Origin: a virus
Strand: one strand, 5' to 3'
IMG/VR virus record: IMGVR_UViG_3300044499_000067
Location: 1 to 49,461 of that record
Length of the DNA: 49,461 bases
Shown: piece after piece, positions 40,683-45,974 of the stretch
Layout of the letters: the number at the start of each line of letters is the position of its first letter
Numbering within the stretch: the first letter of the stretch is position 1
Program-made: the position numbers and the translations under genes
Notes under the pieces: generated by a model
Databases searched by the model: none
What the model saw: the letters and a program-made list of their open reading frames with translations, nothing else
What the model was told of the DNA's origin: nothing

Positions 40683-40956
40683 GAACATCTGGATTGCGCT
40701 AATCGTCGCGATGCCGCCTACGTTGATGGCCTTTGCTGCGTTGGTTACGGCCCTCGTGAACGCGCGTCGCGTGGCAACGTTGACGATCCAGATGAATGGA
40801 CATTTAGCCGAACTGATCGAACTGAACCGTGCGGCAGCCACCGCCTCCGCCGCAGCCGCCTCTGCCGCCGCGCACGCGGCCACGGCGACCACGGTCCGCC
40901 TCCAAAGCGATCAACAGACGATCGACGCAGTGATGGCCCTTCGGAGGAAAGACTGA
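40675..40956 (+). CDS. Single-span membrane protein, holin-like candidate (93 aa)
   Basis: GAGGGGAAAG precedes the ATG. One hydrophobic span (IWIALIVAMPPTLMAFAALV) is followed by an Ala-rich helix and a charged end. Such N-in single-span plus coiled-coil proteins between terminase and tail genes are sometimes annotated as holins. Another candidate lies at 45987. Neither can be confirmed here. Confidence 0.5.
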   Translation: MPENIWIALIVAMPPTLMAFAALVTALVNARRVATLTIQMNGHLAELIELNRAAATASAAAASAAAHAATATTVRLQSDQQTIDAVMALRRKD

Positions 40957-43900
40957 TGCGTACTCTCCTTCTGGTGGTGGTCTTCCTGTTGCTCCCCGCT
41001 GTGGCGCTGCCACAAATCTTCGAGACGCCTACACCCGAGGGCACCGCCCCGACCCCAACGATGACGGCAGGAGGAGGTGGCACAGGCATGGTGGGCGGCT
41101 GTCCCGATGTGCTCGCCTGTCTGCCCGCCACCCCCACGCCGACGCTCAGTCCAACGCCCACGCCCACGGCCACCGCTGCGCTCGGGGATATCACTGCGGT
41201 CGGGGATTGTTTTAGCGGGACGTGCTTCTCCGGTGGCGTCAGCGGGCACACGCTCACGTTCGTCGACAGCATCAACGCGATTGGTGTGCGGGTGAACGGA
41301 CCTGCCTTTTCGATTGGCGGTGTGAAGGACATCAACTGGCCGGACGCGAACGGCACGGTGGCGGTGACGGGCACCGGCGGCATGGGTGTGAGTTCTGCGG
41401 GCGTGATCTCTGCTGCGGTGGCCGGTGACGTGAGCGGGACGATCAGCAACATGAGCGTCGTCGACACGAAGTGTAATGAAGCAAACGAATATCTCTCGGG
41501 TGAGGGCGGATGCGTCACGGTCGCGAACGGCCTCACTCTGTCCGGCGTGGGCGACGCGGACATGATCCCCGTCACCAACGCGCAAGGAGGCTACACCAAC
41601 TTTGAAATCTTCGAGTGCCGACCTGATCAGCACATCGAATACCGCGATTCCAACAATGATCCGCCGGGGCAGGAGTTCATCTGCCGCGACTTCTCCTTTC
41701 CGGACGGCGGTACGACCGACCTCCCCGCCGGCACTGGCACGGCGCAGGTGATGGATGACGGGCGGTTGCAATGGCGCGATGGGTCGGCACACCTCCGTTC
41801 GGTCTCACCACAATTCAATGTACGTGATTACGGCGCCATCCCGAATGATGGCCTCGATGATGTCGTAGCGATCCAAGCGACAGTCGATGCCGTGCGCACC
41901 GCCGGCCGAGGAGTGATTTTCTTTCCGGCTGGGACCTATACCGGCACGTCCGCGACGGGGACTCCCGCCGGCTCTGGTGTCCGCATCACCTGTTCCAATT
42001 GTCTCTTCCAAGGTGAGGGGAGAACAGCCTCCGTACTTGATGGGACGGATGCGACTTCCTTGCTCTCGCAACCGACATTGGTCAGTGGCATCACGCCCGC
42101 GAATGTGGCGATTCAAGACCTTGGGTTGATTATGGGGACGCATTCTGGAGCGACAGGTATTGCGGCCACCGGGGGGATTCTCACCGACATACGGATTGCA
42201 CGCATTAACTGCGACGCGCGCGCGGGGGGAAGCTGCGTTACATTCGATGCGATCCACGATGCGAGCATCGAGGACTCGATATTGTCCGGCGATGCTGATG
42301 GCGCCGGGCGCGGTGTGCTTATTCAACGTGCAAGCCAATCCGTGACCGTGCGCCATAATCTCTTTCGTTTTTTGACTGATGGAGTCATTGGCGACACCGG
42401 CACGGCCGGCGAGGAGCCGTCCCGCGATCTCCAGATTGTGGACAATACGTTTCTTGTCGGATGGCCCTATACACGACGCAAGGTGAGTGGGGGCCAGTAT
42501 GCGACCTACTCAGAGAACACGCTCGACGATCCGACTGTGGATCTGAGTGGCATGGCGGCTAACGATACGATTCGCGTGCTTCCGGTGCGCGCGGTGAGTG
42601 GCGTGGCTGTTACCTATTTCCCTGGCACGAAGATTGTGGATGCTCTCGCTACAGGCGGTCCCAACTTCGTGACCAGCCATGTCCTTCCGGGCGATCTGGT
42701 CTACACAGATACCGGCAATGCCTTCGCCGTTGTGCGATTCGTCGAGGATGCCGATGAGATGTGGGTCGACGGCTGGTATGATCGCACCACGTATCTCCCC
42801 TTGCCCGAACCGGTCGCTAACACGAGGTATGTGATCTATCGTGTTCTTCTCGGCCAATGGTCCTCTGCAACATCCAGCCGCATCACGCTCTCCGCGTTTC
42901 TTTGGTTTGATCTTCAAGGCAACCGGGTGATTCCTGCCGCGGGAGCCTTGTATGAAACGACACAGAATCATCCGAACTACCCCATCCAGATCGAGGGTAA
43001 TGCGCCAGGCGTGCGCATAATGGAAAACCGCATCTGGTACCCATGGGCAGATGGCATATCCTGCTCGAGCGGGCAATGTCAGATCACCAATAATGTCATC
43101 ATCGGTGGCCAGGATATGGGCATCACCGTCTCAGGCAATCAATCTGTGGTCTCTGGGAATCATGTCGATCGTAGTGGTGTATGCGGGATCATCGTGACTA
43201 CCAGTACGGATGACATTATCGCAGATAATACGCTCACGAATTCCGGATGGACGAACCCACAGGGAACCACCGCCAGTGGGATCGGTGATATTTGTCTGTT
43301 GGCGGCCGACAGAACGAACATTCATCACAACTATTTGGAGCGCACGGGATTCTGTGCGGGCGGAACGGCCGAAGGTGATCTCTGCCATGTCGATGGCGAC
43401 TGCGCAGCGAGCACCTGCACCACACCGCCGCTGGCAGCCTATGGTATCACTGTACGGACGGCGCTCGCGAGCACCGCGGTCAAGCTGGAGGCGAATATCA
43501 GCCGTGGGCATGCGACCGCCGGCATCAATATCCCAACGTCTACGAATCTCACGAATTTGGAGATTCTCGACAACCAGGTCGAAAGCTGGGCGCTGGGCTG
43601 GGGTGGTGGATATCTGCTGCGCTGGCTGAGAGCAGAAACACTCGCGAATATCAAAGCCACGTTTGGTCATGCCGCGAATGGTTCCTTTGGGCCGTGTGTG
43701 GATTGTGCGCCGAATACGCATCCCTGCACGGCGTCAAGTTTTGGGTCACAGGCCGTGATGATGGGCGCGAGTTATGCGTGTGCGGGGCCTGCGCCCGGTG
43801 AGACCCCAACCCCCGCGAGTACGGCCACACCGACACCTACTGCGACCCCGACCAGGACCGCGACGCCTACCGTGACGCCGCCAACGATCACGCCAACACC

Positions 43901-43964
43901 TTCTCCGACACGTACCGCAACACCCACGCCCACCCCAACGCCGACCCCCACGGCGACGCCATGA
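40956..43964 (+). CDS. Exported pectate-lyase-like beta-helix protein with Thr-Pro repeats
   Basis: 1002 residues. A clear signal peptide (MRTLLLVVVFLLLPAVALPQ) is followed by a TP-rich linker, a beta domain, and from about residue 287 the pectate-lyase-3 entry motif FNVRDYGAIPNDGLDD with IFFPAGTY, then a long right-handed beta-helix and a Cys-rich knot (CAGGTAEGDLCHVDGDCAAS). The last 55 residues are Thr-Pro repeats. The beta-helix suggests a glycan depolymerase or tailspike, but a signal peptide on a virion protein is abnormal. A secreted depolymerase is the other reading. Codons at 41.8 to 43.7 kb look less GC-rich, hinting at module exchange. Confidence 0.75.
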   Translation: MRTLLLVVVFLLLPAVALPQIFETPTPEGTAPTPTMTAGGGGTGMVGGCPDVLACLPATPTPTLSPTPTPTATAALGDITAVGDCFSGTCFSGGVSGHTLTFVDSINAIGVRVNGPAFSIGGVKDINWPDANGTVAVTGTGGMGVSSAGVISAAVAGDVSGTISNMSVVDTKCNEANEYLSGEGGCVTVANGLTLSGVGDADMIPVTNAQGGYTNFEIFECRPDQHIEYRDSNNDPPGQEFICRDFSFPDGGTTDLPAGTGTAQVMDDGRLQWRDGSAHLRSVSPQFNVRDYGAIPNDGLDDVVAIQATVDAVRTAGRGVIFFPAGTYTGTSATGTPAGSGVRITCSNCLFQGEGRTASVLDGTDATSLLSQPTLVSGITPANVAIQDLGLIMGTHSGATGIAATGGILTDIRIARINCDARAGGSCVTFDAIHDASIEDSILSGDADGAGRGVLIQRASQSVTVRHNLFRFLTDGVIGDTGTAGEEPSRDLQIVDNTFLVGWPYTRRKVSGGQYATYSENTLDDPTVDLSGMAANDTIRVLPVRAVSGVAVTYFPGTKIVDALATGGPNFVTSHVLPGDLVYTDTGNAFAVVRFVEDADEMWVDGWYDRTTYLPLPEPVANTRYVIYRVLLGQWSSATSSRITLSAFLWFDLQGNRVIPAAGALYETTQNHPNYPIQIEGNAPGVRIMENRIWYPWADGISCSSGQCQITNNVIIGGQDMGITVSGNQSVVSGNHVDRSGVCGIIVTTSTDDIIADNTLTNSGWTNPQGTTASGIGDICLLAADRTNIHHNYLERTGFCAGGTAEGDLCHVDGDCAASTCTTPPLAAYGITVRTALASTAVKLEANISRGHATAGINIPTSTNLTNLEILDNQVESWALGWGGGYLLRWLRAETLANIKATFGHAANGSFGPCVDCAPNTHPCTASSFGSQAVMMGASYACAGPAPGETPTPASTATPTPTATPTRTATPTVTPPTITPTPSPTRTATPTPTPTPTPTATP

Positions 43965-45171: not shown

Positions 45172-45180
45172 GAGGTTCGC

Positions 45181-45570
45181 ATGGCTGATCGGCTCGTTCG
45201 TGTACCGTTGTGGGACGTCACAGCGATCGCCAGTACCGCCACGCTGACCTCCCCGCCGATCCCGCTTAGCCGGGCGGACTTCGAGTCGATCCTCTACAAG
45301 GCGACCTCGGTGGCGGGCACCGCAGACGTCAAGATCGAGTACGCGATCTCTGAGGATGGCACCAACTTCGGGTCCTTCGACGACAACACCGACCTCGTCG
45401 CGTCGTCCAACGCGGTCCCCACTGCGGAGGGGCTGAAGACGATCCCTGGCGTGACGGTGGCGGCGCCGTGGATGAAGATCAAAGTGACAGGGACGGCGTC
45501 AAACAACGCGGATACACTTTTCACCGGTGTCGTCTACCTCCGCGAGACGCCAGACGGCCAAACGAGCTGA
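45181..45570 (+). CDS. Beta-rich virion-associated protein (129 aa)
   Basis: AGGAGG lies before the ATG. The product is an all-beta domain (DVKIEYAISEDGTNFGSFDD, then GVTVAAPWMKIKVTGTAS and TGVVYLRETPDG), typical of small domains that decorate fibres and capsids. Stop overlaps the next ATG (TGATG). Confidence 0.65.
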   Translation: MADRLVRVPLWDVTAIASTATLTSPPIPLSRADFESILYKATSVAGTADVKIEYAISEDGTNFGSFDDNTDLVASSNAVPTAEGLKTIPGVTVAAPWMKIKVTGTASNNADTLFTGVVYLRETPDGQTS

Positions 45571-45974
45571 TGCGACGCTTCGCGTTCCCGCTGCTCTTTC
45601 TAGTAGCTGCGGTCACGCTCGCGCTGTCCAACGCGGCGCAGCGGACGCTCGAACAGATGCTCGACCAGATGGGGCACATCGTGAAGATTCCTTTCAGCGA
45701 GATGGCGGCCCCGGACCTCTCCCCGAGTGGGATGTGCACGCTCTATGACGATGCAACGGCGGACGAACTGCGCGTGAGTTGCAACGGGGGCGTGTACCGT
45801 GCGCTCGTGTTGGGTCCCACCGCGACACCGACCCCTACCCCAACGCCAACTCCGACCCCAACACCAACACCGACGGATACCCCAACCCCGACTCCGACGG
45901 AGACGGCGACGCCCACAGACACGCCAACGGCAACACCGACGTTGACACCGACTCCGACACCGACACCTACGTAA
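45570..45974 (+). CDS. Exported protein with long Thr-Pro tail (134 aa)
   Basis: Signal peptide (MRRFAFPLLFLVAAVTLALS), a short folded part with two Cys, and then about 50 residues of Thr-Pro repeats (PTPTPTPTPTPTDTPTPTPT and on). It is the last of the exported set. The repeat DNA has a 6-bp period and is probably unstable in length. Surface spacer or glycosylated stalk is plausible. Confidence 0.65.
   Translation: MRRFAFPLLFLVAAVTLALSNAAQRTLEQMLDQMGHIVKIPFSEMAAPDLSPSGMCTLYDDATADELRVSCNGGVYRALVLGPTATPTPTPTPTPTPTPTPTDTPTPTPTETATPTDTPTATPTLTPTPTPTPT

Follow-up and report, generated by a model that had tools for sequence, protein, structure and literature searches.

How a phage comes to encode spike-like proteins with signal peptides, when tail spikes and fibres are regarded as cytoplasmic virion parts, is the question raised by this locus. 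The window, that is, the whole stretch of 49,461 nucleotides analysed here (record IMGVR_UViG_3300044499_000067), was recognised as a complete phage genome of 49.3 kb because a 127-b direct terminal repeat flanks the whole IMG/VR record (1-127, identical to 49335-49461). Over the compared stretches, a second contig (IMGVR 3300044502_000034) matches the window exactly, and it crosses the terminal repeat. The exported cassette is placed between the terminase large subunit, comprising an ATPase half (38018-39343) and a nuclease half (39805-40452, the left border of the locus), and an SU10-type portal (46899-48791, the right border), which appears to begin with a GTG overlapping the previous stop. 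Both terminase genes, the portal gene, all ORFs described between nuclease and portal, the major capsid gene (1657-2559) and a beta-helix gene behind it lie on the + strand. The terminase gene is split, with two small overlapping ORFs between its halves, one of which (39318-39554) has a Fis-type helix-turn-helix look by eye; the ATPase and nuclease segments are likewise apart in the sister contigs L232, L237 and L239.

The ORFs with predicted export signals between terminase and portal

The preliminary description had reported four neighbouring ORFs, starting at 40956, 43961, 44032 and 45570, with signal peptides and Thr-Pro repeats. Their coordinates were confirmed, all four contain or end in Thr-Pro, and all score at or above the threshold of a home-made heuristic which, together with inspection, was used in place of SignalP, on gene calls that are simple ORF picks in the window and its relatives alike. 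This heuristic finds Sec-type n-, h- and c-regions with small residues at -3/-1, and few other plausible window genes score. Three of the four ORFs are full proteins of 1002, 240 and 134 aa; 43961-44035 encodes 24 aa only and is thus no full protein.

The largest ORF (40956-43964, 1002 aa) has GGAGG upstream of its start and the N-terminus MRTLLLVVVFLLLPAVALPQ, and runs from signal peptide through Thr-Pro linkers, a fibre-like stretch and a beta-helix to a Thr-Pro tail of 50 residues. The pectate-lyase-like beta-helix previously proposed was borne out by matches to PF12708 (E 1.7e-10) and PF13229 (E 1.8e-9), and occupies residues 284-810. The protein matches tail-spike PHROGs (PHROG 2234, 7458); the entry motif of its beta-helix is common to mannuronan epimerases and a glucanase, and its best PDB sequence matches, 5lw3 and 2pyg, extend over residues 286-391. 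Its structure model, at pLDDT 36, is unusable for reading fold or active site. Single-sequence searches for homologues of this spike or of the portal turned up nothing but a further contig of this same phage, and no match in genomes.

The 24-aa ORF (43961-44035; MMIWFALALLLSVADATPTPTATP) consists of a signal peptide and TPTPTATP only, and scores exactly at the threshold of the heuristic. Its start overlaps the preceding stop (ATGA) and its stop overlaps the start at 44032 (GTGA), and because of these overlaps on both sides translational coupling is suggested; the ORF may be a translational coupler, or the remnant of a gene whose body was deleted. The exported fibre-like protein that follows (44032-44754, 240 aa, GTG start) has a weak tail match and carries a signal peptide, 13 Cys, an internal Thr-Pro linker and the C-terminal end PTATP. 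The third protein is short (45570-45974, 134 aa), begins with a signal peptide and ends in 50 residues of Thr-Pro tail; its weak homologue in L325 (30%, E 0.001) has a signal peptide and no Thr-Pro.

These genes are interspersed with small neighbours. Directly 5' of the cassette, 40675-40956 encodes a protein with one hydrophobic segment, for which no family was matched by profile search. A non-exported locus protein (45181-45570) has relatives in L325, L305, L299 and L298; a 56-aa protein with one hydrophobic segment (45987-46157) is holin-like by appearance only; and of two further small non-exported proteins, 46158-46511 is kept beside the portal across the clade and 46495-46899 adjoins it. 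Elsewhere in the genome, two more small ORFs upstream of the terminase (35685-36726) have signal-like or lipobox-like N-termini and could be spanin-type lysis proteins, and a phosphoadenosine phosphosulfate reductase-like gene (12963-13874, PHROG 424/2302) lies within the virion module.

Cysteine content was in keeping with export. The mature exported proteins of the window contain 2.4, 5.9 and 1.8% Cys versus 0.49% in 19 other virion-type or interval proteins of the same phage, and across the clade the values are 1.7% for exported proteins and 0.8% for downstream genes. Since the exported post-capsid beta-helices of L238 and L289 are not enriched in Cys, we regard this bias as supporting, not decisive; as a general test of export it succeeds in the window and over the whole set, yet fails for these proteins.

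The Thr-Pro coding pattern occurs 15 times in the window against 0 expected (100 shuffles). All codons are used in mixture (ACA/ACC/ACG/ACT for Thr, CCA/CCC/CCG/CCT for Pro); the repeat is therefore conserved at the protein level, and a DNA microsatellite was rejected on this variety. The earlier suggestion that the repeated DNA drives module shuffling is accordingly weak, since the DNA repeats are imperfect with varied codons and export in most of the clade goes without Thr-Pro, although module joints in L305 and L307 are occupied by Thr-Pro linkers. The stretches are best read as linkers or tails peculiar to a few clade members. Neither a host sorting tag nor a defining trait could be made of them: when ~85,000 species genomes were searched for TPTPTATP followed by a stop, the 85 loci recovered were mostly chance occurrences out of frame, and only a minority of viral contigs with long Thr-Pro repeats carry a signal peptide. 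In an exported protein of L325 (19991-21661), the start of a beta-helix is preceded by collagen-like GPTG repeats, which apparently fill the linker role of the window's Thr-Pro. A layout like that of the window was also seen in an otherwise unrelated 166-kb jumbo-phage contig (L004, 3039-7900), where a lipoprotein-type beta-helix with a Thr-Pro tail overlaps (ATGA) a second exported Thr-Pro protein.

Predicted export at the same locus among sister phages

We gathered ~40 relatives through portal alignments, with portal identities mostly of 33-49% (best rows) and capsid protein identities of about 52-60% in the rows checked. An interval of 2.5-9.6 kb is inserted between terminase and portal in 17/17 members with both borders, and 8 of these 17 complete intervals hold at least one exported protein of at least 200 aa. 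A signal peptide is scored in 28 of 81 interval genes of that size and in 3 of 210 structural genes downstream of the portal (Fisher p=1e-14). All large interval genes appear to carry a signal peptide in L304/L236, L324/L243 and L328, and none does in L286/L232, L284, L306/L237, L318, L315, L320 and L322; several signal peptides of relatives fall under the strict threshold of the heuristic, and sister contigs may carry assembly errors. Placed on the portal tree, the export label requires 9 changes, at least 5 of them forced by well-supported branches, and export has therefore been gained or lost repeatedly, or genes have been swapped often. Export from this locus is thus clade-wide and modular, a feature missed by the preliminary description.

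The Pfam-type domains of the exported set are Beta_helix, Laminin_G_3, CBM96, Disaggr_repeat, Phage_depo_C and RHGA_epim; for two clade fibre proteins, homologues were not found in isolated phages. In the distant annotated relatives vir526, MW202601, MW202524, QDWS535, MW202785, MW202796 and Pag-Yong1, terminase and portal are adjacent and the annotated spikes or fibres lie downstream of the capsid gene; CRP-901 was also examined, over a stretch that excluded its terminase end. In L233 (62-2503), a single ORF just 5' of the portal joins a TspO-like multi-span membrane region, identified by eye, to a tailspike beta-helix, and may be an assembly chimera.

A modular signal peptide and the possible fates of the exported proteins

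Sister phages share a conserved N-terminal domain of ~150 aa (TQTINTLPxAxATF...; hereafter N-domain), not found in the window's own proteins. It begins at the predicted cleavage point, or no more than a few residues from it, in at least eight phages (L304, L328, L301, L303, L289, L332, L357 and L361), follows the signal and TPTP in L305, and lies inside the exported protein, behind a Thr-Pro linker, in L307/L308. In five others, L232/L286, L284, L293, L299 and L318 (twice), it forms the bare N-terminus with no signal. The same pattern was seen behind the capsid gene, where the window encodes a beta-helix protein without a signal (3505-4920) whose syntenic orthologues in L238 and L289 have a signal peptide immediately ahead of the conserved N-terminus. 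The signal peptide is thus a modular add-on, the same N-terminal domains occurring with and without it. L325 encodes a homologue of the window spike (25% over residues 284-942, E 1e-31) that has a signal peptide too; it is relocated there to the tail module and adjoins two further exported proteins, one of which carries collagen-like repeats where the window has Thr-Pro.

Taken together, signals concentrated at the locus clade-wide, Cys-rich mature proteins and an N-domain that in sister phages starts at or near the predicted cleavage point support the export proposed by the preliminary description; either of its two options, a secreted depolymerase or surface modifier, or a spike crossing the envelope, may apply. 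Gene order, N-termini that look like signals, enrichment across the clade, modular gain and loss and Cys bias are directly seen. From these we arrive at a reading with about an even chance of being right: the cassette would encode Sec-exported spike/fibre-type proteins, made late, whose targets would be glycans at the host envelope or beyond it. Such proteins of a short-tailed-type phage would be produced late alongside packaging and head genes and routed through Sec by the modular signal peptide. After export and putative cleavage they would fold in the host envelope, those of the window probably forming disulphides, and, at the time of lysis or earlier, would act on glycans of the cell surface or outside the cell. 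Receptors might thereby be trimmed or masked, so that progeny would not be trapped and the cell would not be superinfected; these putative roles, against readsorption or in exclusion, are suggested by the domains. The Thr-Pro stretches would be extended segments that link modules or trail behind them.

A different fate, exported yet virion-bound, is possible but rather unlikely: the proteins would stay periplasmic or at the surface until lysis and then attach, via their N-terminal domains, to the virions being released. An AlphaFold2 model of the N-domain (pLDDT 86.9) predicts a helix plus a beta-sandwich, and its best Foldseek matches are the tail fibre of phage A-1(L), the receptor-binding protein of lactococcal p2 and the phi812 baseplate, with several receptor-binding proteins among the BFVD matches; these fold matches, which would favour docking, are modest (PDB E >= 0.028, TM about 0.4). 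The domain is intact behind the signal, its signal-less homologues lie within structural operons, and the genes are always within packaging or tail modules. Retention of a receptor-binding-type N-domain would be surprising in proteins that never met a virion. Against docking, tailed virions are built in the cytoplasm and no precedent was found in the literature searched, and the window's proteins lack the N-domain while its genome has a fibre candidate with weak tail-fibre matches and no signal (7495-8307). We consider it doubtful that this clade of tailed phages exports its spikes and fibres via Sec and fits them to virions only at lysis, outside the cytoplasm, one set serving for virion dressing, receptor clearance and surface masking. 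A simple view would unify these fates: the place of action is outside the cell in every case, and the signal alters only timing and route.

That the hydrophobic N-termini are uncleaved, the proteins staying cytoplasmic and the segment serving assembly or membrane contact in the virion, seems improbable. The sub-threshold scores of several relatives' signals would fit such a role, but the n/h/c-regions and the small residues that precede the mature start, the conserved domain beginning at or a few residues from the predicted cleavage point and the high Cys of the window's mature proteins argue for cleaved signals. Least probable of all is that the genes are cargo, acquired from adhesins or lyases that the host secretes and without a function dedicated to the phage: secreted bacterial proteins often contain beta-helix, LamG and CBM domains, and Thr-Pro repeats are present in a few bacterial proteins, but the cassette position is kept over phages with ~40% portal identity, signal-less orthologues occupy the same positions, and the N-domain was absent from ~830 sampled bacterial genomes, in a search that had no positive control and is weak evidence.

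Comparison with known proteins and significance

The window spike resembles phage tailspikes of the RHGA-epimerase/pectate-lyase type in its beta-helix with a DYGA...D entry motif and its tail-spike PHROG matches, but differs in the signal in front, the Thr-Pro tail behind, its location between terminase and portal and its Cys richness. No head-binding family corresponding to the virion-binding N-terminal domain of tailspikes was found in 40956-43964, whose N-terminus is signal plus Thr-Pro linker. The match to secreted mannuronan C5 epimerases (PDB 5lw3, 2pyg) covers only the start of the beta-helix. In working, the nearest analogues would be exported tailspike-fold enzymes such as WceF and the mosaic adhesive trimer (MAT) proteins of Bdellovibrio. 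WceF of Pantoea stewartii is an exported glycan hydrolase with a tailspike-like right-handed beta-helix that acts on the bacterium's own exopolysaccharide (PMC7949094); the window spike likewise pairs a tailspike-like beta-helix with an export signal, but WceF is bacterial, has a Tat signal and lies within an exopolysaccharide operon (PMC7949094). MAT proteins are exported and phage-fibre-like, with a ~130-aa beta-rich domain directly behind the signal, and many end in S74 chaperones (PMC10769870). Likened by description, this arrangement appears analogous to the signal plus N-domain of the sister phages, a domain that the window proteins lack; MAT proteins are encoded by the bacterium and the clade proteins by phages, and no Pfam match to the S74 chaperone was found among 44 exported clade proteins. 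The window proteins are therefore not filed as MAT, WceF-type or ordinary tailspikes, and no description of exported phage spikes was found in the open-access literature searched.

Homologous spike and fibre proteins that repeatedly gain and lose signals would point to a second deployment route for these proteins, on the infected cell or outside it while that cell is still alive. The clade offers a test system for whether spikes can act before lysis or join virions afterwards, and phages may be the source of many metagenomic beta-helix, LamG and CBM proteins that are labelled 'secreted'.
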